Positions 13,905 to 62,240 of a stretch of 64,000 nucleotides of DNA are shown here, in pieces (the first letter of the stretch is position 1; every line of letters starts with the position of its first letter). Under the pieces are notes generated by a model that saw only the letters and a program-made list of their open reading frames with translations, searched no databases and was not told the DNA's origin. The stretch lies in assembly GCA_004794655.1 (NCBI GenBank), contig SMMW01000018.1, positions 2,248,501-2,312,500 on the forward strand, in the 5' to 3' direction. Both the position numbers and the translations under genes were made by a program. Source of the DNA: Marisa cornuarietis. Lineage: Eukaryota > Mollusca > Gastropoda > Architaenioglossa > Ampullariidae.

Positions 13905-15625
13905 TTAGTTACCACTTCGACAGGTACATGTTCGGCATCCATTTTTATAGACATATCCGTAAGGACAGTTGCGTGTACACTTGATGAGTGGACATTCTGG
14001 TCCTGCAAACGATTTTCCCGTGATTAAAACGTGTAAACGCCATTTTAACGACTGAAGAACTTGATGTGTACATTCTAAAGTTAGTTTTAAATGTTTCGTG
14101 TTCACTCAGCTGTAATGCTTTATGGAAATGTTGGATGGGTTAGTAGACTGCAAAAGTTTCTCAGTCTGGTCTTTTTTCTCCGCATAGTCTTTTCTGCAAG
14201 TCTCTTTTCTTTCAAAATTCTACCTGTACTGATTCTTACAACAAAAAACTGATAATAAAAATAATAAATAAAACAAAAACATATATGAAAATACATACTT
14301 GGTCGGCATGTACAAGTCTGGCATCCATTTACATACAGGTATCCATTTGGACACTCATTGCTACACCTCACTGGGTTACAGACTGGACCTGCAAACATTA
14401 TTTAAAATAGCTTCTTCATAAAATAGTTCTGATGTCTGTCGGGATGGAAAGTCTGAGATATGGTGGTGACAGTGATTTTACGAAGCACGATGAAAGCACA
14501 TACACATTTTATCGAGATTGAGAAAACAGACCGATTCTTACCTGGGTTGCACGCACAGATCTCGCAGCCATTCTCGTCTCGTTGCAGTCCGTACGCGCAT
14601 TTGATGGTTGGACACACTGCAGGTGTACAGTCTAAAGAAACAAAACAATATTACGACTGACTTAGATATGTCTATGCTAGCGCGCACACACACACACACA
14701 CACACGAACACACACACACACACACACACACACGACTTTTACCTTCTTCTTGGGTCTAAAGAATCCAACTTGGAAATATATCCTACAGCCATGCTGACAG
14801 TATTTCAGATTAATTCGGTGTCCAAAGATTTGATTTCTTCTTCTTCCTTCTACTATGTATCTAGTTTCATATCTTGCATTTAGTTTTACACGACGACATC
14901 TATTGTGTCAGTATGGTAATTAATATGTCAAGATAAAATTCTCAAAAATTCTATTTCTAAATATCAAGATTTCCCAGTTCTATATGTTCATGATTTATTG
15001 CGCACGTGTTATGTATAAATCACTGCGAATACAACATTTCGTTGACGAGATATTCAAGACTTTATTTCACACCTCTTACTCACATACAGTACCAAGTATT
15101 CACGCCCATATCTTTGTTCATTCGCATTTGACACATTTTCCCCCACAAACTTATCACATTCTTTAAATAAAACATGTTACAGATACGTATAAATTATTCA
15201 GCTCTATACATTATTAACAAAAACTGCAAACAAAAGTAAGCTCACCTGGTTTACAGGTACAAGTCTGGCAGCCGTCAATGTAGATGTAGCCGTTAGCACA
15301 CGGATGACATTTCAAAAGAGGGCAAACCGGTTCTGAACAGACAGTTTTGTATCTCGGTTGATCGAAAGTGAAACGGAGGTAACCTTACTTAGCTAATGGT
15401 TAACTAAATAGTGAATATAGCTGAAAACTACGTAGTGACTGAGTTAGCATTGGAAAATATCATCGATTGAAGATAATTTGTCATTTAAGAAATCTGAGTT
15501 AAAAATGGCGACTCTTTTGCGGACATAAAAATAAATAATAGTGAATGGTTACCAATTCTTAGTGTTGCTGTACTTACAATGATAACAAAAATACTGAAGC
15601 ATTTTTGTATTGAAGATTCAAACTG

Positions 15626-15697
<72 letters not shown>

Positions 15698-15884
15698 TTT
15701 TGGGGTAATGTTGTCAGCAGCCCATTTTTGTCAGTTGGCCTTCCAAGCAGCCTCCAGCTTCAGGGAAAATGTTAACTTACCATTTTACCAAGTGTATCTC
15801 CTTGCCTCTATTTGTGTGTGTGTGTGTGTGTGTGTGAGTGAGTGTGTGTGAGTGTGTGAGTGAGTGGTGTGTGTGTGTGAGTGA

Positions 15885-15924
<40 letters not shown>

Positions 15925-16303
15925 AGAGAGGCAGAGATGAATAAATCTTTTTATAGCTCACCTTTTATGCATCGACATGTTGGACATCCTCTTTCGTCAA
16001 CTACGTTTCCATAGAGGCAAGCAATAGCACACACTGGTCCACACTGGTTTAAAGGAGGGGCTGGAACAACTTTGAGATATTAACATACACACATACATGC
16101 ATAAAGTATATTGATTGTTGGTGTGAATATTTAACTTTAGTTTTCATGTATAAATATATATAGCTGACAACTACACCTACAAATCGATGAACAACTTTTA
16201 CAAACTGTTCGACGCCTATACATTAGTAAGTCTTACCTGCTCCTGCATTACCGACCATCAAGACCGCGAACGCAAGCAAAGCTGCAACCATCAGACTTGT
16301 CAT
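13905..16303 (-). CDS. Antistasin-like secreted proteinase inhibitor, gene A (six exons)
   Basis: Exons on the minus strand: 16303-16237, 16069-15962, 15332-15246, 14631-14542, 14388-14299, 14002-13905. They join through canonical GT/AG introns, all phase 1, into 540 nt, or 179 residues plus TAA. Exon 1 encodes a signal peptide (MTSLMVAALLAFAVLMVGNA). Each later exon encodes one antistasin-like domain, for example CGPVCAIACLYG...GCPTCRC, CHPCANGYIYIDGCQTCTC, CPTIKCAYG...GCEICAC and CPLIKCTRNC...GCRTCTC, giving five Cys-rich domains in all. Antistasin-family proteins (leeches, Hydra, molluscs) are secreted inhibitors of serine proteinases; the target here cannot be read from sequence. No stop or frameshift is seen, so this is the best-preserved copy. 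A TATA box lies about 110 bp upstream of the ATG. Confidence 0.85.
14686..14732. repeat. (CA)n microsatellite in intron 3 of gene A
   Basis: A CA run just upstream (minus sense) of exon 4. The same intron carries a CA tract in every paralogue (about 29235, 30987, 35090, 42955, 44152, 47294 and 60450). Confidence 0.9.
15631..15696. repeat. (GT)n microsatellite in intron 2 of gene A
   Basis: A near-perfect GT run of about 66 bp. A second GT/GA-rich tract follows at about 15812-15925. Confidence 0.95.
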
Positions 16304-16411
16304 CTCCGCCTGTTACTTGGTTTGAAAATTTGAAGCTCTGACCCAGAAGTGGGTGAAGGAAAGGATCAACAAGTTTCAGTAGTTCTCCGTTGTGTCGTCT
16401 GCTTGCAACGC

Positions 16412-16420
16412 TTTTTATAG
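16412..16420 (-). promoter_or_regulatory. TATA box of gene A
   Basis: CTATAAAAA on the minus strand, about 109 bp upstream of the ATG, lies in a stretch (GGAGACTATAAAA...GTTGCAAGCAGACG) that is almost unchanged in genes B, C and D. The predicted transcription start is about 25-30 bp downstream, giving a 5' UTR of roughly 80 nt. Confidence 0.65.
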
Positions 16421-16984
16421 TCTCCGCTATGTTGACATCCCCTACAGTTTGAGGTCCCATCCCATCATGGATGACGTACAGCTGTATTTTGATTGGTGGA
16501 TATCTGGGGACAGCACTGACCTCTCACACGGTTGAATTCCCGGATCTCTTAACTGACCCCCTCCAACCTCCTATTCGCCTCTGACGCAAAGGGGATCGTT
16601 TACCGGTATTTTTGGCTGTAAAGATCTTTGTAGAAACAGGAGGGAGTAGTTAGTAAACACGGCTCCAAAAACCTGCGGAAGAAAATGATTTAAGGGTACT
16701 TCGCGAGCTGAGGGTGGTAGTCAATGGTGGGGGATGTAAGTAGAGAGGAAAGCACTCATTATCGCTCTTTTTTTTAATAACAACGGACTGGGAGCTGACA
16801 GAACAAGTTCAGCAGTGTATTTTGTGTGGACACCCTGGCGACAAGGACCCCTACAGCCTAAAGTGTAATAAATGCAGGTTATACTTTAGAAGAAGGTTGA
16901 CGACCGATTTATTGCAAGAATGTGAATAGCATGTTGTCGTCTGATCAAATAAAAGACATTTCGAAATCTCAGCACAATCTCTCT

Positions 16985-17043: not shown

Positions 17044-17046
<3 letters not shown>

Positions 17047-17436: not shown

Positions 17437-18265
17437 CTACAGCGACAACGACATACCAAACATCCGGAACTTATTCCGGACCTGATCACAATTCAGTTTG
17501 GTCATCTTAAGCTCTACATTTTGACTAGTGGCTCCCCTATCGTTCACAAACTGCCGGTAGAGAACTAGAGAGTGTTGATAGAAAAGATTTCCATTTGAAT
17601 TTGGAGTCGTAGTGTCTTCATCCGCTGCTCCCCGCACTGATGTTAAGAGGGGATTCTCTTCCTGTAATTTGATTAAACCATCCCTCGTGACATCCCATGG
17701 GGCTGTTGAAATTTCCATAGGGTGGAGAGAGTGCCTTTGTCGTTCTGCTTGTGGTCTCGTCAGGGCGACCACCGCTGGGTCTACTGTCTCAGGTTGATTA
17801 AACGAGACTTTCTTGGCTCCTTTTACATTTCCTATTATCAAGTCGGCTACAGGGTCCTTGATGACGCAGCACTCCAACGTTCCACTGTAACACGGAGTTT
17901 CCACGGGTATTTGAGATAAGGGAAATGTTTCTACCTTTCTCCCGAAGGTGATATAAGATTTCAACTTGTTTAGATAATCTTGGGGGTTAGCCAATGAGGC
18001 CCTGACTCCTGCAATGGTAGCTCCAGAGTCGCGCAGTACTTGCACGTGTTTTCCTCGAATGGTCCCAGGGTAGAGATGTAAACCTCGTGGTTGGAAACGG
18101 AGTACATGATGGCAACATTAGCTGGGGTTAGGTTGTTGTCCTCCCCCTTTTTATTCATTGTATTCCGGGGTTTATAGCTAGGACATTCCTTTGCTATTTG
18201 TCCGAGACCTCCACAGTTGTAACAACGTTGTGGTGGCGTAGTTGGATGCACACGCGCAGCTGCTC
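17437..18265 (-). pseudogene. Ty3/mdg4-like gag-pol fragment (zinc knuckle and aspartic protease)
   Basis: The minus-strand frame 18265-17970 reads a zinc knuckle, CYNCGGLGQIAKEC, in which the usual His of CX2CX4HX4C is Gln. After a frameshift, the frame 18045-17437 reads RDSGATIAGVRASL, the DSGAT active-site signature of retropepsins, and later PVADLIIGNVKG, matching the conserved (I/L)(I/L)G flap-side motif. It then continues into the variable linker that precedes reverse transcriptase in Ty3-type Pol. No RT, RNase H, integrase or LTR is visible nearby. The fragment starts where homology between the gene A and gene B upstream flanks stops (about 17490), so it was inserted at or near that block edge. 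The exchanged knuckle His and the frameshift indicate decay. Confidence 0.7.
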
Positions 18266-19529: not shown

Positions 19530-19531
19530 TT

Positions 19532-19903
19532 CAGTTACATACAACAGCCCCATGGACTTTCACTAGCTTCTAGTGGTGGCTACTGGCTACTATTCTCCCA
19601 ATATTACCAGCCTCCCGTTCCACTTCTAGCTTCTGTGATCTCTCCTGGCTGTATTCAGTCACATGCATCAGCCCCACGGACTTTCACTAGCTTCCAGTGG
19701 TCCCTACTGGCTACTGATCGCTCAACAGTACCAGCCTCCCGTCCCACTCCTAGCTTCTGTGATCTTTCCTGGCTGTATTCAGTCACATGCATCAGCCCCA
19801 CGGACTTTCACTAGCTTCCAGTGGTCCCTACTGGCTACTGATCGCTCAACAGTACCAGCCTCCCGTCCCACTCCTAGCTTCTGTGATCTTTCCTGGCTGC
19901 TTG
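19532..19903. repeat. 124-bp minisatellite, three copies
   Basis: A 124-bp unit starting near GCCCCAYGGACTTTCACTAG occurs at about 19547, 19671 and 19795. Units 2 and 3 look identical and unit 1 is diverged. 124 is not a multiple of 3, so the open frames through it are not a repeated protein. Confidence 0.88.
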
Positions 19904-25173: not shown

Positions 25174-25938
25174 ATTCGTGGGGGGAACGTTAATAACAGT
25201 TATTATGAATGTAAAACGCATGAGATGACTATGTGAAGACAAATAAAAGAGTGTAGAAAAAGTAGCTTAATAACTATGATTTTGTAGTGAACAAATGTTG
25301 TGAACAGTTGCTGAAAACACATACTTATGCACACATATAAATATCAGAATATAAGCACACACATATAAACATGCACACGTAAACACTTACACATACAGAC
25401 ACACGCATACATATTTGCACACAATAGGCACTAAACAAACACATACACACGCAGACGGACAGAGAGAGAGAGATGGTGCAAAGTTTTTGGATGGACTGAA
25501 CATTAAGAGAACCTTCCCCCTGTTTACCGCGTGCCATAAATTTCGGGAAAATCGACTGTCCACCATCAAGGCAGGTGCTTCATTAAGACTTCACCGACCG
25601 CCTCGCGCAAATGTCGTCTGCCTGTCTTAGTCACAAACGTAAATAAAGTAAAGTACAGGTGAGGTCAGTTAGAATTGTTGTCTCTTGCAATCTCGTGCAT
25701 GTTATATGTCATTTGCGAAGTGTAATCAGGGACAAGCCTGGGAAGTCAAAAAGTATTCCAGCAAACTTAATGGTGCTGGCGTAGCAGACTGTTGAAGGAT
25801 ATTACTTTGACATCCCTCACTGAACACATCACAGGCGTAGAAGATTTTCTCGCAGTTGTGGGTTGTTGCTGATAAAGATGGTCTAACAAGAGAGGCCTAA
25901 TCAAGGTGAGAAAGTTTAGTCCTGAATACGCTTTCTAT

Positions 25939-25940
<2 letters not shown>

Positions 25941-27889: not shown

Positions 27890-28390
27890 GGGATCAGTAA
27901 TCTGAACCAGTGACACGGGACACACTGGTAACAGGACCGCTGTGTTGATGATTTTTAGTACCTTCTAGCTTCCCTAACATCTTCGCCCCCGTTAATTTAG
28001 TTCACACGTTAGATATAAAATGTTTTAAGTGTTGGTCGGTCACTTTTGTTATTAAAAAAGCAGAAGAGTGCAGCGCGGCGTTGTCACACATACTTGTTCC
28101 CACACATCATCAGTGAGCACTCCACACTAAAACAATACAGTGTTGACTTATTTTTATTGATTCTTTGATTGCTTGAAGACAGGTACATGTTGGGCATACG
28201 TTTTCATAGACATATCAAGAACGACATTAGCTTGGACAGACGTTGAGTGGACATTTTAGTCCTGCAAACGATTTTTCCCGTGATTAAAACATGTAAACGG
28301 CATTAATTCTACGTCTGCTGATTTTACAAAACAAAATAAAAATAAAAATAATAAATAAACACATTTAACAAATACATACTTGGTAGGCAT

Positions 28391-28845
28391 AATAATAATA
28401 GTGAAGATTTTTATAGCGCATATTCACACTCATAGAGAGCATGCTCTTAGCGCTTAAAACGATGAAGAGACATGGACTAAGTAGACACAGAACAAAGGGG
28501 ACGAAAGAAAACGACAGTACTGACGAAACAGAAAACAAAAGGCATCAAGTAACAGGAACAGAAAAATATAGTGATTCTGCGAGAAAGATGGGTAAAGTAG
28601 CAAGAGGGAAGGGGGCGGGGTTAAGAAGGACGAGCATTGTGGACTGTGTTAGGAGTAATGCTCAAGGAAGAGGTGCGTTTTCAGTGCAGATTTGAAAGAT
28701 TCAGTTGTAGGAAGGTGGCAGATATGGAAAGGAAGAGAGTTCCATTGTTTTGCAGCAGAGTAGCCAAACGTCCTGTGACCATATGTTGTTGTTCTGGTGA
28801 CAACATGTACAAGTACAAGTACATGTACAAGTCTGTACATGTACA
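28391..28845 (+). mobile_element. SINE-like insertion destroying the exon 5b donor of gene B
   Basis: Paralogues read TTGGTAGGCATGTACAAG without interruption. Here AGGCAT occurs at 28385-28390 and again at 28846-28851, with 455 bp between. The insert begins AATAATAATAGTGAAG and TTTTTATAGCGCATATTCAC, has an A-rich middle, then CGTTTTCAGTGCAGATTTG and CCATATGTTGTTGTTCTGG, and ends with short TACAAGTACATG repeats. Related sequence occurs at 9841-10215, with partial ends at 26300-26380 and 59250-59325. Confidence 0.72.
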
Positions 28846-29231
28846 AGGCATGTACAAGTCTGGCATTTATTTACATACAGGTATTCATTTGGACACTGAT
28901 TACTGTACCTCAATGGGTCACAGACTGGACCTGCAAACATCGCCTACATCTTGAACAGTTCTGATGTTTGTCTGCATGTAAAGTCTGAGACGGGATGGTG
29001 ACTGTGATTTTAAAAAAATGAGGAAATCATTCTGTTACCGAGACTGACAGAAAAGACCGATTCTTACTTGGGTTGCACTCACACATCTCGCAGCCATTCA
29101 CGTCTCGTTGTTGTCCGTACGGGCATGTGATGGGTGAACATACTGGAAGTACACAGCCTGGAGAAAAACAATATTGCGACTAGTTTAGTCATGTTTATAC
29201 CAGCACATATCAACCACACGCGCACGCAGGA

Positions 29232-29271
<40 letters not shown>

Positions 29272-30281
29272 TGCGTCTAAAGAACATTAAAAATACATCC
29301 CACTGTCATGTTACACTCAGTCCTTCCTCATTATAAGGTGTTTAATTTTATGCAGTCATAGAAACCGTGTTTAATAAGATGCCTAATAATTGCAATATTA
29401 AACAAGTTCAAATACTGAACCTGCTTCGAATTCCAATGCAGTATTTATTTTTCAAATAATGTATCCTAGCACATGTAATAAGTGTGATTTTAAACACCTA
29501 AACTTACAAGTCAGTATTAAGCTTTAATTATTTTCTTTGTATATTGAAGATTAATTAGTCCACACAAATTTGACTTATCTTTTTTTCATAAGACTGTATA
29601 TTTCGTTTCATATCTCGCGTTTAGTTGTATACCACGACTTCTATTGTTTCAGTATGGTTATTAAAATGTCAAGATTATATTTGCAAATATTGTCCAAATT
29701 CTATATATTCATGATTTGTTGCGCACCGGTTATGTATAAATCACCACGTATACAAAAACTTATCTAAAATCAGTTCGCTGGGGAATTATTTAAGACTTTA
29801 TTTCACACCTCTTACTCACGTACCAAGTACCAAGTACTCACGGCCACATCTTTGTTCGTCCGCATTTGACACATTCTTCTACACTAACTTACCACATTCC
29901 TTAAATAAGAAATATGTTAGATACGAATGACTTCTTCAGGTGTAGACATTAGTAAGAGAAACTGCAACAAAAGTAAGCTCACCTTCACAGATACACGTCT
30001 GGCAGCCGTTTTTGTAGATGTAGTCCTTAGGACACGGAAGGCAATACACAGGAGGGCATGGAGGTCCTAAAGAGACAGTTTTGTATCTCGGTTAATCGGA
30101 AGTGGAACGGAGGTAACATTACATAACTGATGGCTATTTTACAGTGAAAATATTTCAATAAAACGCAGTGACTGAGTTCGCCTTGGAAAATTTCATCGAT
30201 TGAAGAGAATGAGTGTTTGTGAAATCTGTGTTAATACGGGCGACTCTATTGTGGACAGAAAACTAAATAATTCAAACTGAG

Positions 30282-30282
30282 C

Positions 30283-30360
<78 letters not shown>
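30282..30360. repeat. (GT)n microsatellite in gene B
   Basis: An uninterrupted GT run of about 78 bp; the matching tract in gene C is at 43433-43535. Confidence 0.97.
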
Positions 30361-30361
<1 letters not shown>

Positions 30362-31980
30362 GTGCTAAGCTCAGTCCTTCATCATCATAAGAGTTTTTGT
30401 TCAGTTTTAGAAACGGTGTTTAACAAGATGCCTAATACTAGCAATATTAAACACAAGTCGGTTCAAATACTGAACGTGCTTCGTATTCCAAAGCAGTATT
30501 TTATTTTTCAAATAATTTATCCTAACATCTGTAAGAAGAGTGATTTTAGACACCTAAACTTACAAGTTAGTAACAAGTTTTAATTATGTTCTTTGTATAT
30601 TTTAGATTAATTAGTCCAAACATCTTGACATCTTTTTTCATTAGACTGTACTTAGACACTGATTACTGCACCTCACTGGGTCACAGACTGGACCTGCGAA
30701 CATCGCCTACATCTTGAACAGTTCTGATGTTTGTCTGCATGTAAAGTCTGAGACGGGATGGTGATTGTGATTTTTAAAAAAATGAGGAAATCATTCTGTT
30801 ACCGAGACTGACAGAGAAGACCGATTCTTACTTGGGCTGCACTCACAGATCTCGCAGCCATTCACGGCTCGTTGTCGTCCATACGGGCAAATGAGGCGTG
30901 GACATACTGGACGTACACAAGCCTGGAGAAAAAAAATTGCGACTAGTTTAGTCATGTTTATACCAGCACACATCAACCACACGCGCACGCAGGAACACAC
31001 ACACACACACACACACCTTGCGTCTAAAGAACATTAAAAATACATCCCACAGTCATGTTACACTCAGTCCTTCCTCATTATAAGGTGTTTAATTTTATGC
31101 AGTTTTAGAAACCGTGTTTAATAAGATGCCTATTACAAAATATTAAACAATCTTAAGTTCAAATACTGAACGTGCTTTGCATTCCAATGCAGTATTTTAT
31201 TTTTCAAATAATGTATCTTACAAGTCAGCATATATATATATATATATGTATAAATCACCATGTATACAAAAACTTATCGAAAATCAGTTCGCTGGGGAAT
31301 TATTCAAGACTTTATTTCACACCTCTTACTCACCTACCAAGTACTCACGGCCACATCTTTGTTCGTCCGCATTTGACACATTCTTCTACACTAACTTACC
31401 ACATTCCTTAAATAAGAAATATGTTAGATACGAATGACTTCTTTAACTGTAGACATTAGTAAGAGAAACTGCAACAAAAGTAAGCTCACATTTACAAGTC
31501 TGGCAGCCGTTTACGTAGATGTAGCCGTAAGGACACACAAGGTATTTCACAGGAGTGCATGGTCCTGAACAGACAGTTTTCTATCTAGGGTAATCGGAAG
31601 TGGAACGGAGGTAACATTACATAGCAAATGGCTAATTAAATAGTAAAAATATTTTGAAAGAGCAGTGACTGAGTTCGCCTTGGAAAATTTCATCGATTGA
31701 AGAGAATGAGTCTTTGCGAAATCTGTGTTAATACGCGCGACTCTATTGTGGACATAAAACTAAATAATAATAATTCAAACTGAGTCTCTGCGTGCGCGTG
31801 TGTGTGTCTTTTGGTGTTATAGACACTGAAAAAAAAGTTCTGTTAACAGCCGCGGGCTAGCATAAGCAAAATCACGTCGTACGTTTTTGTCAGTCTGCCT
31901 TCCAAGCACCTTCTAGGGGGAAAAAACGCTTTCTTCGTTTACCAAGTGTATGTCTTCTCTTGTCTGTCTGTGCGTGTGTG

Positions 31981-31983
<3 letters not shown>

Positions 31984-32056
<73 letters not shown>

Positions 32057-32061
32057 AAAGA
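31984..32061. repeat. (GT)n-(GA)n microsatellite in intron 2 of gene B
   Basis: A GT run then GAGAGA, just downstream (minus sense) of exon 2, as in genes A, C and D. Confidence 0.93.
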
Positions 32062-32284
32062 AACAAAGATAATTAAATCTTTTAAACTCACTTTCTTTGC
32101 ATTTACATGTTGGACATCCTTCATCATCAAATACGTTTCCATAGGGGCAATAAATATCACAGACTGGTCCACATCGGGGAGCGGGTGGAACAGCTTGTAG
32201 ATGTTAACACACACATATATATATATATATATATTTAAAGCATATAGATTATTGGTGGGAATACTTAGCTTTATTTTTTATGTG

Positions 32285-32317
<33 letters not shown>

Positions 32318-32560
32318 CTGACAACTACACCTTCAAGTCCAAACACAACTTTTACAAACTGTTCGACGTCTTTACACGAGCAAGTCTTACCTACTGCTGC
32401 TTTGCCGACCATCAAGACCACGAACACGAGTAAAGCTGTAACCACCCGACTTGCCATTTCCACCTGTTACTTGGTAGACAAATGACGCACTAGTAAGGAA
32501 AGGATCAACAATTACAATTACTTTCAGTTGCTCTCCCTGGTGTCGTCTGCTTGCAACACG

Positions 32561-34674: not shown

Positions 34675-35079
34675 AATACTTGGTAGGCATGTACAAGTCT
34701 GGCATCAACTGACATACAGGTATCCATTTGGACACTGATTGCTGCACCTCACTGGGTTACAGACTGGACCTGTATTTCAGCTTCTACATAAAACAGTTCT
34801 GATGTCTGTCGGGATAGAAAGTCTTAGATGGGGTGGCGACAGTGATTTTACAAAACACGAAGAAAGCACATACATTTTTTTACCGAGATTGACAGAAAAA
34901 CCAATTCTTACCTGGGTTGCACGCACAGATCTCGCAGCCATTCACGTCTCGTTGCTGTCCGTACGCGCATTTAATGACTGGACACACTGCAGGTACAAAA
35001 GCCTGGAGAAAAAAAATATTGCAACTAGTTTAGTCATTTTTCTACCAGAACATATCAACCACACGCGCACGCGCACACG

Positions 35080-35121
<42 letters not shown>

Positions 35122-36640
35122 TACATACGCACACACACATCTTCTTGCGTCTAAAGAAAATAGATTGGAAATACTTCCTTTTATCGTGCAAATCTCAGTC
35201 CTTCATCATGTTTAATTTTGTTTAGATTTAGAAACCATGTTTAATAAGATGCCTAATACTAGCAATATTAAACACAAGTCGGTTCAAATGCTGAACGTGC
35301 TTCGTATTCCAAGGCAGTATTTTTTTCAAATAATGTGTCATAACATCTGTAATAAGAGTAATTTTTAACAGCGTAACTTACATGTCAGTAGCAAGTTTAA
35401 ATTATATTCTTTGTATATTTCAAATAAATTAGTCCAAACAGCTATATTTCGTTTCATATCTTGCATTATACGACTTCTATTGTTTCAGTATAGTTATAAA
35501 TATGTCAAGATAATATTTGCAAAAATTATATATATATTTTTTTGCAAATTATATTTGCAAATATCGGTTTCTTCCGAATTTTATACATTCATGATTTATT
35601 GCGCACGTGTTATGCATCAATCCCCTCGTATACAAATACTTCTGAAATCATACTTCATTTCACACCTATCACTTACGTACCCTATGTCGCGTGTATCGAC
35701 GAATCCAATCGCTCTCCAGTGCAAAACAGACGACACACACACACACACGTGAGGATAATACAAATACACGTTTAATTAAAACTAAAAAGGAAAAAAAAAA
35801 CGGATGTAACAGAAACAAGGGAGAGAACAAAGAAACTATAGTGGGCCGGGGCAAAAAAAAAAAAAGACGCCTACCTGCCCAATACCACCCCCTCCCTGTC
35901 TATACCCTAAGATACCACCCCGCTCTGATGATCAGCACTCCGCTCGAACAGCAGACTAGCAGCCGAAGAAAGTCACGTTATTTATCCCACAGTCCTTCAA
36001 CTCCTCTGCCTTTTCACGACAGTCTCCCTTTTGCTTTCTTCGCTCTTCCATAACCACCCCTCTCTCTCCTCACGCGCCAATCACGTCAAAACCAACCAGA
36101 TTACAATGATTGCGTCAGATTATCATGACGCAGCAAACCCCCTCCCCCTTTAGAACTAAAGCTCGGACTGAGCCAGCATGCGACACGCGACATCCTACAA
36201 AGTATTTACGGCCATATCGTTGTTCATCCGCATTTGAAACATTCTTCAACACACACACACACACACTTCCCATATAACTTAGAGAAGAAATATTTTAGAT
36301 ACGAATGGCTTCTTAAGTTGTATACATTAGTAAAAGAAACTGAAGTGAATGAGTCTTTTGTGAAATCTGTGTTAATGATGGCGCCTCATGCAGCCTCTAG
36401 TTTAGGGGGAAAAATATGTCTTCTCTGTGTCTGTCTTTGCGTCCGTGCATGAGTGTGTGAGGGAGATACGAGAAACAACGATGGATAAATCTTTTTTTTT
36501 AACTCACTGTCTATACATCGACATGTTGGACATCTTTTTCGTCAAGTACATTTCCATAGAGGCAAGCAATACCACACACTGGTCCCCATTGGTGCACACT
36601 GGTCAGAAGGAGGGAATGGAACAGCTTTTAGACGTTTACA
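34675..36640 (-). pseudogene. Antistasin-like pseudogene E (exons 2, 4 and 5 only)
   Basis: Exon 2-like sequence at about 36630-36511 has a small internal duplication (GTGTGCACCA next to GGGACCAGTGTG) that breaks the frame. Exon 4 at 35002-34912 is 91 nt, one longer than the intact 90-nt exons, and reads CPVIKCAYG...GCEICAC in its own frame. Exon 5 at about 34771-34679 reads GPVCNPVRCSNQCPNGYLYV, then an in-frame TGA. Exon 3 is missing: its flanks (AGTAAAAGAAACTG and AATGAGTCTTTTGTG near 36340) are joined directly. Exon 1 is absent, and intron 1 is interrupted by the elements at 36649-40745. No exon 6 follows. A MITE sits at 35684-36193. Confidence 0.7.
35684..36193. mobile_element. 510-bp MITE with ATGTCGCGTGT termini and CCT duplication
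   Basis: The 11-bp ends ATGTCGCGTGT and ACACGCGACAT are perfect inverted repeats, flanked by CCT at 35681-35683 and 36194-36196. Paralogous introns read through this site (ACGTACAAAGTACTTACGG in gene C). No transposase is encoded. The 3-bp duplication fits several DNA-transposon superfamilies, so I do not assign one. Confidence 0.75.
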
Positions 36641-37465
36641 AAACACACTGTCAGGAACACACGGGACGTGCAGACGGGTCACATACAACACTCACTGTCC
36701 GCACGGCGTTCCTCACGTACTCTTTCACGCAAAAAACAAAACAAAACAAAGACCTGTAGTGGGTTCCTAAATCTCTATAATTTCCGGGTTCTTACTAGTT
36801 TTTATAGGGAAACAGCAAAATCAACCAATTTTAAATACTTTTTCAACAATATCAACAATTTTACATCTACATATCTTTCCACTACTACTGACTAGGTACA
36901 CCCTCTCAATAACTTGGGTTACTCTCTCTCTATATATATATATATTAACAATCAAGCATGAGAATCAAATCAACGACGTATATATCCCACCCTTCTCCAG
37001 TCCTCCGTTTTCAATAATAGTCTTCTCCTTCTATAAGTCAAATCTTCTTCCAATGGGTTCACCAACAGTTTCTCAGAAAAACAAATGACCAAACACACTG
37101 TCAACGTCCGGTCAGAACACACGCACTCACAGATATACACTTGCCTGTAATACTCCTCCTTGAAACGATCCAGATGATTAAAATACACAGCACTGCGAAT
37201 CTCTCCAAATACACAGCAATACTCCAATTATCAGAATCCGCCAGCAGACACACAGCAACTGGGGAATCTGTCCAAACACACAGCAATACTCCGAACGCAG
37301 ACGACCTTTTCTTTTTTCTCCAACCTTCTCTAACCGCCCGTTCTCACACGCTCCTCAGCAGATGACTCCTTTCTCCCAATCTCCCGGACAACACCTGACG
37401 TCATACCTTCTTTTACGTCATGCGTCCTAAACCATACTCCAAACGTACATTCAAGGGGCACTAAC

Positions 37466-42311: not shown

Positions 42312-43430
42312 TCACTGTTGTGCTTCCCTCAAACAGGTACATGTTGGGCATCCATTTTCATAGACATATCCATAAAGACAGGAGTGGAGACACATCATGG
42401 GTAAACAATTCGGTACTGCAAACGATTTTTCACGAGATTCACATATGTTAACGGCATTAATTCTACGTGTGCTGATTAAATAAAAACAAACTGAAAATAA
42501 AAATAATAAATAAAAGCATTTAAACTTACATACTTGGTAGGCATGTACAAGTCTGGCATGTATTTACATACAGGTATTCATTTATACACTGATTACTGCA
42601 CCTCACTGGGTCACAGACTAGACCTACAAGCATCGCCTACATCTTAAACAGCTCTTTTAAAAAACAATTCTGATGTTTGTCTGGATAGAAAGTCGACGGT
42701 GATCTTACGAAACACGAGGAAATCATTCTGTTACCGAGACTGACAGAGAAGACCGATTCTTACTTGGGTTGCATTCACAGATCTCGCAGCCATTCACGGC
42801 TCGTTGTCGTCCGTACGGGCATCTGATGGGTGGACATTCTGGAAGTTCACAGCCTGGAGAAAAACAATATTGCGACTAGTTTAGTCATCTATACCAGCAC
42901 ACATCAACCACACACGCACGCAGGAACGCATTCAGGAACGCACGCAGGAACGCACACACACACACGCACACACAAACACACGCACGCGGACGCACACACA
43001 CACACACCTTGCGTCTAAAGAACATTAAAAATACATCCCACTGTCATGTTATACTCAGTCCTTAATCATTAAAAGATGTTTAATTTTGTAAGATTTAATT
43101 TTGTAATTAGTAAGAGAAACTGCAACAAAAGTACCCTCACATTTACAAGTCTTGCAGCCGTTTTTGTAGATGTAGCCGTTAGGACACGGACGGCATTTCA
43201 CAGAAGGGCAAGGTCCTAAACAGACAGTTTTGTATCTCGGTTAATCGGAAGTGGAACGGAGGTAACGTTACAGAACTAATGGCTAATTAAATAGTAAAAA
43301 TATTTTAAAAAAAGACAGTGACTGAGTTCGTCTAGGAAAATTTCATCGAATGAAGAGACTGAGTCTTTGTGAAATCTGTGTTAATACGGGCGACTCTATT
43401 GTGGACAGAAAACTAAATAATTCAAACGGA

Positions 43431-43471
<41 letters not shown>

Positions 43472-43500
43472 TGTGTGTGTGTCTGTGTTTGTGTGTGTGC

Positions 43501-43532
<32 letters not shown>

Positions 43533-44187
43533 GTGGTGCTAAGCTCAGTCCTTCCTTATCATAAGAGTTTTTGTTTAGTTATAAAAACCGTGTTTATTAG
43601 ATGCCTAATACTAGCAATATTAAACACAAGTCGTTTCAAATAAAAAACGTTCTTCGTATTCCAAGGGAGTATTTTTTTCAAATAATTCATCATAACATCT
43701 GTAAGAAGAGGGATTTTAAACAGCTAAACTTACAAGTCATTAACAAGTTTTAATGATGTTCTTTGTATATTTTAGATTAAGTAGTCCAAACAGCTTGACT
43801 TCTCTTTTTTCATTAGACTGTACTTAGACACTGATTACTGCACCTCACTGGGTCACAGACTGGACCTGCGAACATCGCCTACATCTTGAACAGTTCTGAT
43901 GTTTGTCTGGATGTAAAGTCTGAGACGGGATGGTGAAGAAATCATTCTGTTACCGAGACTGACAGAGAAGACCGATTCTTACTTGGGTTGCATTCACAGA
44001 TCTCGCAGCCATTCTCGTCTCGTTGTCGTCCATACGGGCATTTGATGGGTGGACATACTGGAGGTACACAGCCTGGAGAAAAACAATATTGCGACTAGTT
44101 TAGTCATGTTTATACCAGCACACATCAACCACACTCGCACGCAGGAACGCACACACACACACAAACACAAACACAGACACACACACA

Positions 44188-44229
<42 letters not shown>

Positions 44230-45601
44230 CACACACACACACACACACCTTGCTTCTAAAGAACATTTTAAAAAATCCCACTGTAATGTTACACTCAGTC
44301 CTTCCTCATTATAAGGTGTTTAATTTTATGCAGTTTTAGAAAATAAGATGCCTAATACTTGCAATATTAAACAATCTTAAGTTCAAAAATAGAACGTGCT
44401 TTGCATTCCAAGGCAGTATTTTATTTTTCAAATAATGTATCATAACATCTGTAGCAGCTTAACTTCTCTTTTTTCATTAGACTATATATTTCGTTTCATA
44501 TCTTGCGTTTAGTTGTATACCACGGCTTCTATTGTTTCAGTATGGTTATTAAAACGTCAAGATTATATTTGCAAAAATTGTCCAAATTCTATATATTCAT
44601 GATTTGTTGCGAACCTGTTATGTATAAATCACCATGTATACAAAAACTTATCGAAGATTACTTCGCTGGGGAATTTTTCAAGACTTTATTTCACACCTCT
44701 TACTCACGTACAAAGTACTTACGGCCACATCTTTGTTCGACCGCATTTGACACATTCTTCTACACTAACTTACCACATTCCTTTAAATAAGAAATATGTT
44801 AGATATGTTAGTAAGAGAAACTGCAGCAAAAGTAAGCTCACCTTGACAGGTACAAGTCTGGCAGCCGTTTTCGTAGATGTAGCCGCGAGGACACGGAAGG
44901 CAATCCACAGGAGGGCATGGAGGTCCTGAACAGACAGTTTTGTATCTTGGTTAATCGGAAGTGGAACGGAGAAAACATTACATAACTAATGGCTAATTAA
45001 ATAGTGAAAATATTTCAAAAAAAGGCAGGACTGATTTCGCCTTGGAAAATTTCATCGATTGAAGAATTCGGCCTTCCAAGCCCCTTCTAGGTTAAGGGAA
45101 AAAAATGCTTTCTTCGTTTACCAAGTGTATATCTTCTCTTGTTTGTCTGTGCGTGTGTGCATTTGGTGTATTTGTGTGTGTGTGATTGAGAGAGAGAGAG
45201 GAGAGAGATAGAGAGAAAAGAAACAAATATAATTAAATCTTTTAAACTCACTTTCTATGCATTGACATGTTGGACATCCTTCATCGTCAAGTACGTTTCC
45301 ATAGGGGCAATAAATATCACAGACTGGTCCACATCGGGGAGCGGGTGGAACAGCTTGTAGATGTTAACACACATATATATATATATATATATTTAAAGCA
45401 TATAGATTATTGGTGGGAATACTTAGCTTTAGTTTTTATGTATGTATATATATAGAGAGAGCTGACGACTACACACACGAGTCCAAACACAACTTTTACA
45501 AACTGTTCGACGCCTTTACACGAGCAAGTCTCACCTACTGCCTCTTTGCCGACCATCAAGATCACGAACACGAGTAAAGCTGTAACCACCCGACTTGACA
45601 T
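42312..45601 (-). CDS. Antistasin-like secreted proteinase inhibitor, gene C (eight usable exons)
   Basis: Exons on the minus strand: 45601-45535, 45353-45252, 44925-44842, 44072-43983, 43215-43135, 42853-42764, 42623-42534, 42415-42312. All junctions are GT/AG and phase 1, totalling 708 nt, or 235 residues and TGA. Exon 1 is a signal peptide (MSSRVVTALLVFVILMVGKE). Seven antistasin-like domains follow, e.g. CGPVCDIYCPYG...GCPTCQC, CLPCPRGYIYENGCQTCTC, CPPIKCPYG...GCEICEC, CRPCPNGYIYKNGCKTCKC and CLYGYVYENGCPTCTC. A truncated exon 5 remnant (43865 to about 43826) sits between the fourth and fifth exons. Skipping it keeps the frame open, while including it ends the protein early (CLSTV-stop). 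The order 3-4-5-3-4-5 shows an internal exon duplication. Expression is unproven. Confidence 0.7.
43433..43535. repeat. (GT)n microsatellite in gene C
   Basis: A GT run with CT and TT interruptions; homologous position to 30282-30360 in gene B. Confidence 0.95.
43826..43865 (-). pseudogene. Truncated antistasin exon 5 of gene C
   Basis: It has an acceptor (TTCGCAG) and GPVCDPVRCSNQC, then runs directly into intron-type sequence giving LSTV and a stop. Gene B carries the same truncation with the same junction at about 30649-30693. Confidence 0.75.
44152..44248. repeat. (CA)n microsatellite in gene C
   Basis: A CA run with CAAA, CAGA and CG interruptions, adjacent to exon 4. Confidence 0.95.
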
Positions 45602-46994: not shown

Positions 46995-47290
46995 ATCGAA
47001 TTGAAATTGTATTTCAGCTTCTACATAAAACAGTTCTTATGTGTGTTGGGATGTGAAGTCTTAGATGGGGTGCCGAAAGTGATTTAACGAAGCACCAAGA
47101 AAGCACATACATTTTGTTACCGAGACTGACAGAAAAACCAATTCTTACCTGGGTTGCACGCACAGATCTCGCAGCCATTCACGTCTTGTTGCAGTCCGTA
47201 CTGGACACACTGCAGGTACAAATGCCTGGAGGAAAACAATATTGCAACTAGTTTAGTCGTTTTTCTACCATGCAGCACATATCAACCACA
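46995..47290 (-). pseudogene. Antistasin exon-4 relic F with flanking intron
   Basis: An exon-4-like segment at 47225-47149 is 77 nt, with a 13-nt internal deletion that removes the CPxIKC part. It keeps GLQQDVNGCEICACNP and a GTAAG donor. Flanks on both sides (CAGCTTCTACATAAAACAGT, ATTGCAACTAGTTTAGTC) match pseudogene E, so this is a detached piece of an E-like copy. Confidence 0.6.

Positions 47291-47293
<3 letters not shown>

Positions 47294-47363
<70 letters not shown>
47294..47363. repeat. (CA)n microsatellite
   Basis: A pure CA run in the intron next to relic F. Confidence 0.97.
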
Positions 47364-51874: not shown

Positions 51875-54800
51875 TTATTCCTGTACTCTCCCAGTGGAGC
51901 ATAGGGCCGCAACCACACCCCGCCAACGGACCCGGTTCTGGGCACTCTTTTCTAGTTGGGACCATGTTATGCCAGCTGTCTCTGCCTCTCTGTGGACTGA
52001 TCTCCTCCACGTCTCTCTGGGTCTCCCAACCCTGCGCCTCCCCTGTGGGTTCCAGCCCAGGGGCCAGTTGCACAACACATTTCTAAGTTTAAACACTTTT
52101 AGACCTTAACTCTATTTAGATAATTATTGTAAAGTGCACACCACAATTTTAGAATTTTTAAAACTAAAACTGCTTTATTTAAGATAAAGTTGTTTAAGTC
52201 TGACTTTCTGTCCTGTCAGTACAATTTTTTTATGTTTTTCTGCAAAGAATCAAAATGGCTTAGAAGAGATTTTGCCTCTTTAGAACAGTTTTAAGGTTTA
52301 GAAACGTGTTGTGCAACTGGCCCCAGAGCTTGGTCGTAAGGTGTGACCAATCCAGCCCCACCTCCGCTTCCTGATGTCGTGGCTGGCAGGTTTTTGATTG
52401 GTTCTCTCCCACAGGTCTGTATTGGAGATCTTCTCAGGCCATCTGATGTTGAGGATGTGGCGCAGATATCTGTTGACGAATGTCTGTATCTTGTTAGTAA
52501 TGGCATTTGTCACCCGCCATGTCTCGGATCCATATAGAAGTATTGCCTTTACATTTGTGTTAAAGATGCGGATCTTGGTGTGTAAAGATAGAGCCTTGGA
52601 GTTCCAGATAGGTCTTAGGGTGTGGAATGCAAGCCTGGCTTTGTTTGTTCGGCTTCTTACATCCTCATCTGAACCTCCATCTTTGCTGACTATGCTGCCA
52701 AGGTAGGTGAAACGGTCAGACTCTGTAATGCATTCCCCATGCAGTTGTAGTGGGGCTTCTTGCTTGTTGTTGACCCGCATTACTTCCGTCTTCTTGATGT
52801 TGATGGTCAGGCCCGTCATCGCTGCTTCTTCTGCGAGCCGAGTGAGCTGTGTTTGTGCGTGTTGTTGTTTGTGGGACAGCAGGCTGATGTCGTCTGCAAA
52901 GTCGAGATCTTCAAGTTGCCTGGCGAAGGTCCACTGAACGCCCGTGTTACTGTTAGAGGTTGTTCTTCTCACGATCCAGTCTATGACGATCAGGAAGATT
53001 GTCGGTGAGAGCATACAACCTTGCCTCACTCCAGTCCTCACTGCGAAGGGGTCAGTTAGCTTTCCGTTGTAAATCACCTGGCATGTCGAGTCCTCATACA
53101 GCTGCTGGATGATGGCAATAAACTTTGGTGGAAATCCGAAGTGCTGCATCAGTATCCAGATGGTTTCCCTGTCTACGGAGTCAAAGGCTTTCTCAAAATC
53201 CACAAAGGCTATGTATAGTGGTGCCTGCCATTCAATGGACTGTTCAATAATATTTCGTAGTGTAGCGATTTGGTCTATGCATGATTTTCTCTGCCGAAAG
53301 CCTGCCTGTTCTTGCCTCAGTCTCTTGTCTAGTGCGTCTTTTAGTCTCTCCAGGATGATTCTGGTCAGCACCTTGCTAGGAGTGGACAACAGCATAATCC
53401 CACGCCAATTGCTGCATTGTGTAAGGTCGCCTTTTTTTGGGTAGCTTTACTAGGTAGCCAAGCTTCCAGTCTGCTGGAACTTGTTCCTGTTCCCAAATTT
53501 TCTTCAGCAGTGGGTGTAAAATCTCTGCTGCGGCTGTTGGATCTGCCTTTAATGCTTCTGCAGGAATGCCATCTGGGCCTGCCGCCTTGCCAGACTTCAA
53601 GGACTTGATGACTTTGATTATTTCTGCCTTGGTTGGTGGGTTGGTGTTTACTTGAATCTGTTCGGCGGCTGGGGGAATGTCCAAAGTGTTTGTTGTTGGT
53701 GGTCGATTAAGTATTTCATCAAAATGTTCCACCCAGCGTGATCTTTGTTCTGCATCTCCGGTGATGGCGCTGCCATTCTTATCCTTTATTGGTCTTTTTC
53801 TTCCTGCCAGAGTTCTTGTAATTTCGTATAGTCTCTTTGTGTTATATTGCCCAGCTGCTTGTTCTGCCTCTTCTGCCATCTTGTGTGTGAACTGTCTCTT
53901 GTCATCTCTTGCGCTCTTTTTTACTACCCAGTATTTTGCTCTGAGTTCATTTTCCTGCTGGTCTTGACATTGGTTGATCTTCTGCTTCAGCTCTTTCCTT
54001 TCCTCTATTTTTTGCCAGGTCCTTATATTCAGCCATTCCTTATGCTGTTTTCCTTTCTTCCCCAGAACGTGTGTGCAGGAAGTTTTCCAGGTCTCTTGTA
54101 TTCTTGTCCAGTGGTTGGTCACTGTTTCTTCCAAGAGTCCTTTCAGTGCTGCAAACCTGTTTTTTACTTCGCAGTTGAACTCTTCTTGCTTTTTCCGATC
54201 TCTAAGAAACTGCACGTTGAATTTGTGGTGCGATCTGTCTGATGAGTCGTGGAAGGACCTCAGCTTTATCTTCATAGTTGCCACAAGTAGGTGGTGGTCT
54301 GTGGCTGCATCTGCACCTCGCTTTACTCTGACATCCAGCAGACTCCTTCTAAACTGTCGATCGATAGTGATATGATCGATCTGGTTTTCTGTATTTCCAT
54401 CTCGTGAAGTCCAGGTGGTCTTGTGAATAGTTTTGTGAGAAAAGACTGTGCCTCCGACTACAAGGTCGTTGAACAAGCAGAAGTCTGTGAACAGCTCATC
54501 ATTCTCATTGCAGTTGCCCGCACCGTGCTTTCCCATTATGTGTTCTTTGTCCGTGTTGTCATCTCCAACTTTGGCATTCATGTCGCCCATGATGATCTTC
54601 AGGTCTCGTCTTTGAGTACGATCAACCAGCGCTTGTAGGGAGTGGTAAAAGTCCTCCTTCTCCTCTGCGTTGGTAGGTGCATAGCACTGGATGATGGTGA
54701 TCTTTCTTCCTTTGGAGTTGAACCGAGCTGACATGAGTCGTGGTGAAACTGGTTCCCATGTTATTAGTGCTCTTGCAGCCTCTGTGTCATCAGTACTGCT

Positions 54801-55020
54801 ACTCCTTTTGAGTGGTCATGGTCAGGGTCTTCATGTCCAGAGTAGATGATAGTCTCCCCTGACGAGAGTTTGGTCTGACCGCTACCATTCCATCTGGTCT
54901 CGCACAGGCCAAGGAGCTTGATGCCATAGTTCTTCATCTCCTGTGCTACCTGATTTCCCTCTCTCGTATAGGGTTCTGATTGTTCCAGGTCCCTAATCTG
55001 GTTTTTGCCTTGGCCGTGAG
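51875..55020 (-). pseudogene. LINE copy 2 endonuclease-reverse transcriptase
   Basis: Blocks on the minus strand: in broken frames at 55010-54740, LGTWN, CETRWNGSGQ, GETIIYSGHE and WEPVSPRL; then in frame 54734-53376, MSARFNSKGRK, IIQCYAPTNA, GDMNAKVG, NQIDHITI and ATDHHLL (endonuclease), and GKAAGPDGIPAEAL. A shift in an A-run near 53436 separates the RT, whose frame 53395-52298 has [54 protein letters not shown] and LYGSETW. The last part (LGWNPQGRRRVGRPRETWRR) lies beyond the MITE at 52061-52323. It is more decayed than the 37.5-40.6 kb copy, and their proteins differ widely, so they are separate subfamilies or old relatives. Confidence 0.8.
52061..52323. mobile_element. 263-bp MITE inside the LINE RT gene
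   Basis: The left end GGGCCAGTTGCACAACAC and right end GTGTTGTGCAACTGGCCC are perfect inverted repeats, extending imperfectly through TTTCTAARYTT. CAG flanks both sides (52058-52060 and 52324-52326), consistent with a 3-bp target duplication. Removing it brings the two parts of the RT C-terminal region (QALG / WNPQGRRR) together. It has no coding capacity. Confidence 0.8.
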
Positions 55021-55457
55021 AAGATAGGTCGGCGAGCTGACTTCCCGAAGGCTTTCGCCAGCACGCGTCATAGGCCCCTCCAAAGAGGAATCTTCCCGTC
55101 TAGGCTCTCGTTGTGGTAATGTTTTAGTTGCGGTTTCTGTAGCAGGGTTGTTTTACAGGGTGGGGTTGCTAATCCCACGCCCAACCCTCCTCCTTCATCC
55201 GGGCTTGGGACCGGCAGGGTTTGTCAGAGGGTTTGTGCCTCTATTGAGTACAGAGTTAGTAAGAATATTTGTATTCATCGTTGAACTGCTATTTTGTGAA
55301 CTTGAAATATTATAACCGTAAGAGAAATGTGTCGCGTGGTAACTCTAATGAGACGTAACAATCGCGATGACCGCTTTTCGAGAGAAGTTTCAGTCGTGTA
55401 GAGTAACGGGATGTTACTTTTAGTTAAGTCAAGTGGTATTACACAGAGTCACTGAAA

Positions 55458-58366: not shown

Positions 58367-58905
58367 ATTTACACACAATAGGTACTAAACAAACACATAC
58401 ACACACAGACGGAGAGAGAGAGAGATGGTGCAAAGTTTTTGGATGGACTCAAAGAGTAAGAGAACCTTCCCCCTGTTTATCGCGTGCCATAAATTTCGGG
58501 AAAATCGACTGTCCGCCATCAAGTCAGGTGCTTCAGTGAGACTTCACCGATCGCCTCGCGCAGATGTCGTCTGCCTGTCTTAGTCACAAACGTAAATAAA
58601 GTAAAGTACAGGTGAGTCAGTTAGAATTGTTGTCTCTTGCAATCTCGTGCATGTTATATGTCATTTGCGAAGTGTAATCAGGGACAAGCCTGGGAAGTCA
58701 ACAAGTGTTCCAGCAAACTTAATGGTGCTGGCGTAGCAGACTGTTGAAGGATATTACTTTGAGATCCCTCACTGAACACATCACAGGCGTAGAAGATTTT
58801 CTCGCAGTTGTGGGTTGTTGCTGATAAAGATGGACTAACAAGAGAGGCCTAATCAAGGCGAGAAAGTTTAGTCCTGAATACGCTTTATATAAATATATAT
58901 ATATA

Positions 58906-58988: not shown

Positions 58989-61465
58989 GAGACAGAGAGG
59001 AAAGGGAGGTCGGGGTAATAGAGAGTGGCAAATCTGTTCCTCCAAACACCTTGGTTTCACAAGTATCTTGTGGTATGAAGCAAGCAGAGACCATACAGAA
59101 GCAGAAGTCACGATAAAGTCTACGTATGCATACAAACAAAAGAAATATTTGTTTTGACAACACGTATTCACTTTATTGTATTATACTTTTATGCACTGCT
59201 ACCAAAAGTAAAGACTAATTACTAAGAATACGAATCTAGTCTGTCAATGAAGCATGCTTTCTATGAGTGTGAATATGCGCTATAGAAATCTTCATTATTA
59301 TTATTATTATTGTTGTTGTTGTTGCTGTGATCAGATAAATGATTAATGTACTTCACTTACTACTTCATGTAATCTTATTCTTATTAATGTTATGAACTCA
59401 AGATAGGATTGTCAGCTCTTTGATCCTCTACCATATCCTTCTCTCATTCTCTATTTTACTTGTGGCTGTAAGCATTCAGTATGGTGTCCTTTTTATCCGT
59501 TAAAAGCATACAGTATGGTGTCCTTTTGTGTAAGAATGTTTAGACCACCAACGATCCCCTGGTCAAGCTGCCATCGCACCTGTTAATGACCTACAAGGTT
59601 GTTCGAGGCGGGGATCATTAATCTGAACCAGTGACACGGGACACACTGGTAACAGGACCGCTGTGTTGATGATTTTTAGTACCTTCTAGGTTCCCTGACA
59701 TATTCACCCTCGTTAATTTAGTTCACACGTTAGATATAAAATGTTTTAAGTGTTGGTCGGCGTTGTCACACATACTTGTTCCCACACATCATCAGTGAGC
59801 ACTCCACACTAAAACATTATAGTGTTGACTTATTTTTATTGATTCTTCGATTGCTTAAAGACAGGTACATGTTGGGCATCCGTTTTCATAGACATATCCA
59901 GAACGACATTAGCTTGCGCAGATGTTGAGTGGACAGTTTGGTCCTGCAAACGATATTTCCCGTTATTAAAACATGTAAACGGCATTACTTCTACGTAATC
60001 TGATTTTACGAAACAAAATAAAAATAAAAACAATAAATACATTTAAAAATACATACTTGGTAGGCATGTACAAGTCTGGAATTTATTTAAATACAGGTAT
60101 TCATTTGGACAGTGATTACTACACCTCACTGGGTCACAGACTGGACCTGCAAACATCGCCTACATCTTGAACAGTTCTGATGTTTGTCTGGATGTAAAGT
60201 CTGAGACGGGATAGTGACTGTGATTTTAAAAAAAATGAGGAAATCTTTCTGTTACCGAGACTGACACAGAAGACCGATTCTTACTTGGGTTTCACGCACA
60301 GATCTCGCAGCCATTCACGTCTCGTTGTCGCCTGTACGATCATACGAGGAATGGACATCCTGAAAGTAAACAGCCTGAAGAAAAACAATATTGCGACTAG
60401 TTTAGTCATGTTTATACCAGCACACATCAACCACACCCGCACGCAGGAACGCACACACACACACACCTTTGCGTATAAAGAACATTAAAAATACATCAAA
60501 CTGTCATGTTGCACTCAGTCGTTCCTCATTATAAGGTGTTAAATTTTATGCAGTATTAGAAACCGTGTTTAATAAGATGCCTAATACTTGCAATATTAAA
60601 CAATCTTAAGTTCAAAAATAGAACGTGCTTCGTATTCCCAGGCAGTATTTTATTTTTCAAATAATGTATCCTAACATCTGTAATAAGAGTGATTTTAAAC
60701 ACCGAAACTTACAAGTCAGTATAAAGTTTTAATTATGTGCTTTGTATATTGAAGATTAATTGGTTCACACAGCTTGACCTCTTTTTTCATAAGACTGTAT
60801 ATTTCGTTTCATATCTCGCGTTTAGGTGTATACCACGACTTCTATTGTTTCAGTATGGTTATTAAAACGTCAAGATTATAGTTGCAAAAATTGTCCAAAT
60901 TCTATATATTCATGATTTGTTGCGCACCTGTTATGTAGAAATCACCACCTATACAAAAACTTATCGAAAATCAATTCGCTGGGGAATTATTCAAGACTTT
61001 ATTTCACACCTCTTACTCACGTACCAAGTACCAAGTACTCACACCACATCTTTGTTCATCCGCATTTGACACATTCTTCTACACTATCTTATCACATTCC
61101 TTAAATTAGAAATATGTTAGATACGAATGATTTCTTCATCTGTAGACATTAGTAAGAGAAACTGCAACAAAAGTAAGCTCACATCTACAAGTCTGGCAGC
61201 CGTTTATGTAGATGTAGCCGTTAGCACACGGGTGGCATTCCACAGGAAGGCATGGAAGTCCTGAACAGACAGATTTGTATCTCGGTTAATCGGAAGTGGA
61301 ACGGAGGTAACATTACAGAACTAATGGCTAATTAAATATTTAAAAAAAAAACGCAGTGACTGAGTTCGCCTTGGAAAATTTCTTCGATTGAAGAGAATGA
61401 GTCTTTGTGAAATCTGTGTTAATACGGGCGACTCTATTGTGGATAGAAAACTAAATTAGTCAAAC

Positions 61466-61473
61466 TCTGTGTG

Positions 61474-61505
<32 letters not shown>

Positions 61506-61518
61506 TGCGTGTGTGTGT
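61466..61518. repeat. (GT)n/(GC)n microsatellite in gene D
   Basis: A GT run changing to GTGC units in the middle. Confidence 0.9.
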
Positions 61519-61894
61519 ATTTCTTTTGGTGTTATAGACACTGAAAAAAAGTTCTGTCAACAGCCGTGGGCTAGCATAAGCAAAATCACGTCGTTTACGT
61601 TTTTGTCAGTCGGCCTTCCAAGCATCTTCTAGGTTAAGGGGAAAAATGCTTTCTTTGTTTACCGAGTATATGTCTTCTCTGTGTCTGTCTGTGCGTGCGT
61701 GCATGGGTGTGAGAGAGAGAGAGAAAGAGAGAGAGAGAAAGAAACAAAGATAATTAAATCTTTTTAACTCACTTTCTATGCATTGACATGTTGGACATCC
61801 TTGTTCGTCAAGTACGTTTCCATAGGGGCAATAAATAGCACAGACTGGTCCACATTGGTCAGAAGGAGGGGTTGGAACAGCTTTTAGATGTTAA

Positions 61895-61895
61895 A

Positions 61896-61942
<47 letters not shown>
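61895..61942. repeat. (CA)n-(TA)n microsatellite in intron 1 of gene D
   Basis: A CA run followed by a TA run; TA runs lie in the same place in B (32216) and C (45373). Confidence 0.92.
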
Positions 61943-62240
61943 AAAGCATATAGATTGTTGGTGGGATACTTTGCTTTAATTTTCATGTATATATATGTAG
62001 CTGACGACTACACCTACAAGTCCAAACACAACTTTTACAAACTGTTCTACTTCTTTACACGAGCAAGTCTTACCTACTGCTGCTTTGCCGACCATCAAGA
62101 CCACGAACACGAGTAAAGCTGTAACCACCCGACTTGACATTTCCACCTGTTACTTGGTAGACAAATGATCCACTAGTAAGGAAAGGATCAACATTTACTG
62201 CTTTCAGTTGCTCTCCCTGGTGTCGTTTGCGTGCAACGTG

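Follow-up and report, generated by a model that had tools for sequence, protein, structure and literature searches.

The locus studied here raises the question of whether a series of neighboring antistasin-like sequences in the snail Marisa cornuarietis represents a single gene family caught at several stages of birth and decay and, if so, what its genes would encode. We analyzed a 64,000-nucleotide stretch of contig SMMW01000018.1, hereafter called the window, and all positions given below are those of the window. We conclude that multi-module antistasin genes very probably form a tandem cluster there, together with the traces of its birth-and-death history.

The copies were first detected by scanning the six reading frames for the cysteine pattern, followed by a comparison of the window with itself, in which the copies and their flanks appeared as direct repeats. 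Seven antistasin loci were found between 10.4 and 62.1 kb, all on the minus strand: genes A, B, C, and D, each with a signal-peptide exon, the degraded gene E, and relics at 47.2 and 10.5 kb. Each copy named in a preliminary description of the sequence, which had proposed a one-strand tandem cluster of at least five gene copies plus two relics, was recovered on that strand. Three plus-strand rows returned by the loosest cysteine pattern did not look antistasin-like and were rejected. Exon profiles were then made from the copies found, meaning that the re-finding of exons III (8 copies), II (6), IV (5), V (4), and SP/I (4) is by construction. Outside the profile-building set, the profiles matched the exon III relic of the 10.5-kb locus (10593-10441; E = 5.8e-21), exon I of gene E (E = 5.9e-37), and partial exons IV at 47069-47015 (E = 7.5e-9), 43929-43822 (E = 8.2e-33), and 30757-30650 (E = 2.1e-32). 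In the reversed-sequence control, profiles II, III, IV, and V matched nothing, and SP/I returned a single row (E = 0.0067). A match at 40796-40743 corresponded to a TA/TG simple repeat and was not counted, and four weak plus-strand rows of the protein profile (iE 0.24 to 1) were set aside, the control there having two rows (0.93 and 1.7). Overall, the window contains nine exons III, six exons II plus a scrap in E, five full and three partial exons IV, four exons V, five exons I, and four signal-peptide exons.

Two of the genes, A and C, have spliced frames that are open from end to end, with GT-AG at every intron, while B, D, and E carry lesions, as had been described. Gene A (13443..16303, minus strand) consists of a signal peptide, five antistasin modules (I to V), and a Cys-rich tail, with exons at 16303-16237, 16069-15962, 15332-15246, 14631-14542, 14388-14299, 14002-13913, and 13555-13443. 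The preliminary description had ended this gene at a stop at 13905. The gene is indeed open, but its end needs revision: the exon V donor sits just before that stop, and splicing past it to a seventh exon that had been missed (13555-13443; acceptor ttttacag, phase 1) is possible. The predicted product has 214 amino acids, or 179 if translation continues through exon V to the stop at 13905. The tail exon was located from protein P0001 of Pomacea canaliculata, an apple snail (Ampullariidae), and is 82% identical over 28 amino acids to the C terminus of that protein. Its cysteines follow the spacing C-3-C-3-C-10-C-2-C-1-C, the same as in module I of A. No second copy of this exon was found in the window, and the tail had no Pfam match at E values up to 10. 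A wider protein search with module V plus the tail returned nothing either, a weak null result given that it also missed P0001 despite the common tail. By eye, a cysteine pattern resembling the tail follows the modules in P0009, P0010, P0011, and the first half of P0008.

Gene C (42312..45601, minus strand) is predicted to encode 233 amino acids with seven modules. Its exons are SP (45601-45535), I (45353-45252), II (44925-44842), III (44072-43983), II2 (43215-43141), III2 (42853-42764), IV (42623-42534), and V (42415-42312), and the profile match at 43929-43822 adds a shortened extra exon IV. No tail exon was found for C, whose stop comes just after module V; the second half of P0008 likewise ends just after V. 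Module IV of C is without the Gly usual before the fourth cysteine.

Every module exon of A and C begins in phase 1 and every internal one also ends in it, so that modules can be doubled or skipped without loss of frame. The exon finder required phase 1-1 and listed several AG/GT pairs for each exon; the frames were also inspected freely, and we picked as borders those pairs that retained a whole module and agreed among copies. With this procedure, the common exon plan and intron phase proposed earlier proved real for A and C. Each gene would thus encode a secreted string of six-cysteine modules, one per exon, with phase-1 borders. The codon of the last cysteine, rather than lying wholly within exon II, is split by the intron (T|GC with the usual exon III) in exon II of B (31490), II2 of C (43141), and II of D (61183), all on the minus strand. 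The signal-peptide exons of A (16303-16237), B (32457-32391), C (45601-45535), and D (62140-62074), all on the minus strand, come from a scan for phase-1 donors only; a signal peptide is predicted in the four genes from the hydropathy of this first exon and from its 65 to 78% identity to the start of P0001. The common promoter context that had been claimed was also seen, by eye, as TATAAAA and CCAAT-like motifs at matching places upstream of the ATG in genes A to D.

With regard to family membership, both open genes exceeded the curated cut-off of Pfam PF02822 (21.2 bits). Gene A without its last exon scored 83.1 bits (E = 1.9e-23), with four stretches passing alone for five modules, and with the tail 60.9 bits (E = 1.6e-16); gene C scored 83.6 bits (E = 1.3e-23), with three stretches passing alone for seven modules. 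By count, the six-cysteine core is present in all 12 modules of A and C, the sixth cysteine of C_II2 coming from the intron-split codon. When C, the only query used, was compared to the PDB, the sole match at E values up to 0.1 was leech antistasin (1SKZ; E = 4.8e-5, residues 61-171). Mapped on this alignment, the reactive position (P1) of the leech protein, which we take to be an Arg, corresponds in module I to Ala (A and D) or Asp (B and C), and the spacing differs in the other modules, which makes any placement of P1 there unsafe. Given this replacement at the presumed position, a factor Xa-type, anticoagulant-like specificity is not predicted, and the blood-feeding role of the leech antistasins should not be transferred to the snail copies. 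Judging by family, inhibition of serine proteases outside the cell is the most likely role, and we consider it probable. The proteins would be extracellular serine-protease inhibitors in which a conserved disulfide scaffold presents one exposed loop per module and has a surface that changes fast. The missing Arg in module I, at the position assumed above, would also suit modules that are mainly structural, as part of a mucus, shell, or egg-fluid matrix, rather than working inhibitors. In the same direction, limpet shell-matrix proteins contain antistasin-like domains together with WAP domains, as stated in part of PMC3374290. This explanation bears on function alone and shares ground with the cluster history; we find it rather unlikely, since the non-cysteine positions change fast. 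Such change is commoner in interaction surfaces than in structural repeats. Secreted inhibition remains the role that we prefer, and portions of PMC12297450 attribute immune roles to antistasins in marine gastropods.

The remaining copies are decayed to various degrees, and all lie on the minus strand. Gene B (28171..32457) retains SP (32457-32391), I (32193-32092), II with a cysteine lost (31564-31490), III (about 30919-30832), a shortened extra IV (30757-30650), II2 (30066-29983), III2 (29157-29068), IV (about 28930-28846), and V (28326-28171, a profile match). The usual acceptor of its exon III is in the wrong phase, and another AG upstream, at 30943, would retain the phase; exon IV has no donor at the usual place, and exon V has stops. 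Gene D (59853..62140) comprises SP (62140-62074), I (61880-61773), II (61260-61183), III with stops (about 60445-60232), IV with a cysteine lost (60146-60057), and V with stops (60008-59853). The V exons of B and D have a stop in common, which is thus probably older than the B/D split. In the degraded gene E (34679..36642), the frame of exon I is broken (36642-36485) and is followed by a scrap of the II region (36387-36339), an exon III whose first cysteine is lost (35072-34860), and an exon IV with a stop (34832-34679). The exon relic described at 47.2 kb exists, but it is larger than had been thought (47015..47299), retaining exon III sequence at 47299-47097 and, at 47069-47015, a portion of the exon IV region. 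The relic at 10.5 kb (10441..10593) is an exon III with a profile E value of 5.8e-21.

Other elements lie between and beside the genes. A LINE-like element at 37470-40628 (minus strand) has an endonuclease and a reverse-transcriptase domain, spread over two neighboring stop-to-stop frames, and a second one at 52298-55099 (minus strand) has an RVT_1 domain and an endonuclease just under the cut-off; the two are alike over 212 bases at 67.9%. Two open stretches on the minus strand, 437-1273 and 5403-6472, are related to each other (73% DNA identity over 608 columns), had no Pfam match at the cut-off, and are perhaps an unclassified mobile element. Upstream of A, the frames at 17437-18263 (minus strand), one of which falls just short of the cut-off for a CCHC zinc knuckle (20.3 versus 20.8 bits), are perhaps a retroelement remnant. 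A 124-bp unit is repeated three times in tandem at 19530-19899.

To reconstruct how the copies arose, we compared exon trees. In the joint tree of exons III and IV, E grouped with the 47.2-kb relic as its sister (95.5/96; support for this pair from exon III alone was 83 or 71), and B, C, and D stood apart from A and E (100/100). An unrooted protein tree of six sequences, two of them from Pomacea, likewise recovered a B/C/D clade (98.9/98) and grouped A with Pomacea. Within this clade, B and C each have the additional shortened exon IV, which was absent from the first reading and adjoins an internal duplication whose junction is the same in both genes (30650-30652 and 43822-43824). The trees conflict at this level: B is nearer to C at the 5' end and nearer to D at the 3' end. 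Indeed, B grouped with C in the SP/I DNA tree (94 to 95) and in the SP+I+II protein tree (96.3/99), and exon I differs by 4 bases between B and C and by 16 bases between B and D, although B-D is the pair with the highest raw SP/I identity (91.5%). At the 3' end, B grouped with D in exon V (97) and exon IV (87), while B2 plus D was unsupported in the joint III-IV tree (0/23) and the exon II and III trees were weak inside B/C/D. If B and D are sisters, the extra module pair was lost in D or the 5' part of D was exchanged; we infer from the conflict an exchange between copies. A claim of gene conversion between B and D was dropped: a 467-bp block at 96.1% seemed exceptional, but its surroundings were close as well by mismatch count. 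This block, in the 3' flanks of the B and D units (25474-25939 versus 58426-58891), lies within a longer collinear duplicate.

The closeness of B and D, whose 3' flank alignments contain 73 mismatches (122 gaps) in 1460 columns and 62 (108 gaps) in 1218 columns, is what could be expected if the extra copies were an assembly artefact, with diverged haplotypes placed end to end. However, the noncoding distance around SP/I is already 0.096 for this pair, the smallest of the six, and reaches 0.333 for A-C. Moreover, the module pair of B is absent from D, the lesions of the two genes differ save for the common stop in V, and two LINEs lie between them that are alike over only 212 bases at 67.9%. 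Because of this divergence and the unlike module content, haplotypic copies are unlikely, and we consider an artefact extremely improbable.

We therefore keep to the reading of a birth-and-death family, which is supported by tandem duplicates of differing age and by open, lesioned, and relic copies side by side; the B/C/D clade, set apart from two Pomacea sequences in the unrooted tree, may represent lineage-specific duplicates. Gene A would be the core member that has been conserved, and B/C/D would be a second lineage that arose by duplication, gained and lost module pairs by unequal exchange, and retained a single open copy (C) amid dead ones. In this respect, birth and death here appear to be of the ordinary kind for a gene family, and the cluster a clear instance of them.

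The open genes A and C were compared over five aligned modules, for which C, having two II-III pairs, contributed one of them. None of the 30 cysteines was changed, versus 48 of the 117 other residues, a pattern with a hypergeometric chance of about 1.3e-6. The corresponding rates were Ks 0.25 and Ka 0.21 (Ka/Ks 0.86), and the open exons of B and C gave a Ka/Ks of 1.04; ratios of single exons were too noisy for use. Taken alone, these two ratios would fit relaxed constraint, and the value for A-C, together with lesions in three of five gene copies, could mean that the family has ceased to be needed and that every copy, including A and C, is a dying relic. We regard this as very unlikely, because the A-C cysteines are all kept against 48 of 117 other changes, splice sites are usable throughout, promoter-like motifs are retained, and the identity of A to Pomacea proteins is about 76%. 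The pattern fits a disulfide scaffold that stays fixed and a surface that changes freely or quickly, although it is no proof of positive selection.

The phase-1, one-module-per-exon plan also leads to a prediction on exon skipping. With its internal module exons in phase 1-1, the array might constitute a damage-tolerant, re-shuffling inhibitor arsenal: a copy lesioned in one module might still be expressed as a shorter inhibitor if the damaged exon is skipped, and seeming pseudogenes such as D would then still contribute to a rapidly changing repertoire directed at proteases of parasites or pathogens. Short forms of this sort are annotated at least once, since Pomacea P0001 (named isoform X3) is without III and IV and in frame. 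Some skips would fail, exon II of B joined directly to II2 leading to a stop, and we offer this idea only as an improbable one.

To place the cluster among known systems, we considered other snails. The top matches of both protein searches were Pomacea canaliculata proteins, and A is 76.4% (110 sites) and 75.7% (107 sites) identical over SP+I+II+V to two Pomacea sequences, P0001 and the second half of P0008. Other named snails followed at about 40% (Nucella 42%, Batillaria 39%, and Littorina 39%), interspersed with proteins from Hydra, a bryozoan, bacteria, and metagenomes. By themselves, these matches point to an apple snail or a near relative as the likely host. Both Pomacea sequences agree with A in signal peptide and in the order of the modules (I-V in P0008; I-II-V in P0001), and P0001 also has the same tail, reading SP-I-II-V-tail, with III and IV absent without loss of frame. 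The contig listed for P0001, P0008, and P0009 has the same length in each case (34,737,321). In contrast, the B/C/D lineage with its doubled II-III pair was not encountered among these proteins; as only these three Pomacea proteins were compared, a B/C/D ortholog may have been lost or be unannotated in Pomacea. The cluster is a compact case in which both whole genes and single modules can be seen, next to one another, to have been gained or lost, with Pomacea as an outside reference.

Our literature search on antistasin in Pomacea and on antistasin with exon shuffling found no report of this cluster. Compared to the leech antistasin/hirustasin type, whose repeats have 10 cysteines (a figure given in part of PMC10671345), the snail genes differ in having a six-cysteine module per exon. 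Closer in arrangement is the SudRes1 region of Biomphalaria sudanica, a different snail, in which sections of PMC12297450 place antistasin genes beside RPTP genes, in several divergent neighboring copies; the likeness lies in these neighboring snail copies. The same sections describe the region as associated with schistosome resistance, and the pace of change in clusters of this type therefore bears somewhat on snail immunity. Overall, the Marisa cluster is of a known kind and more elaborate than first described.
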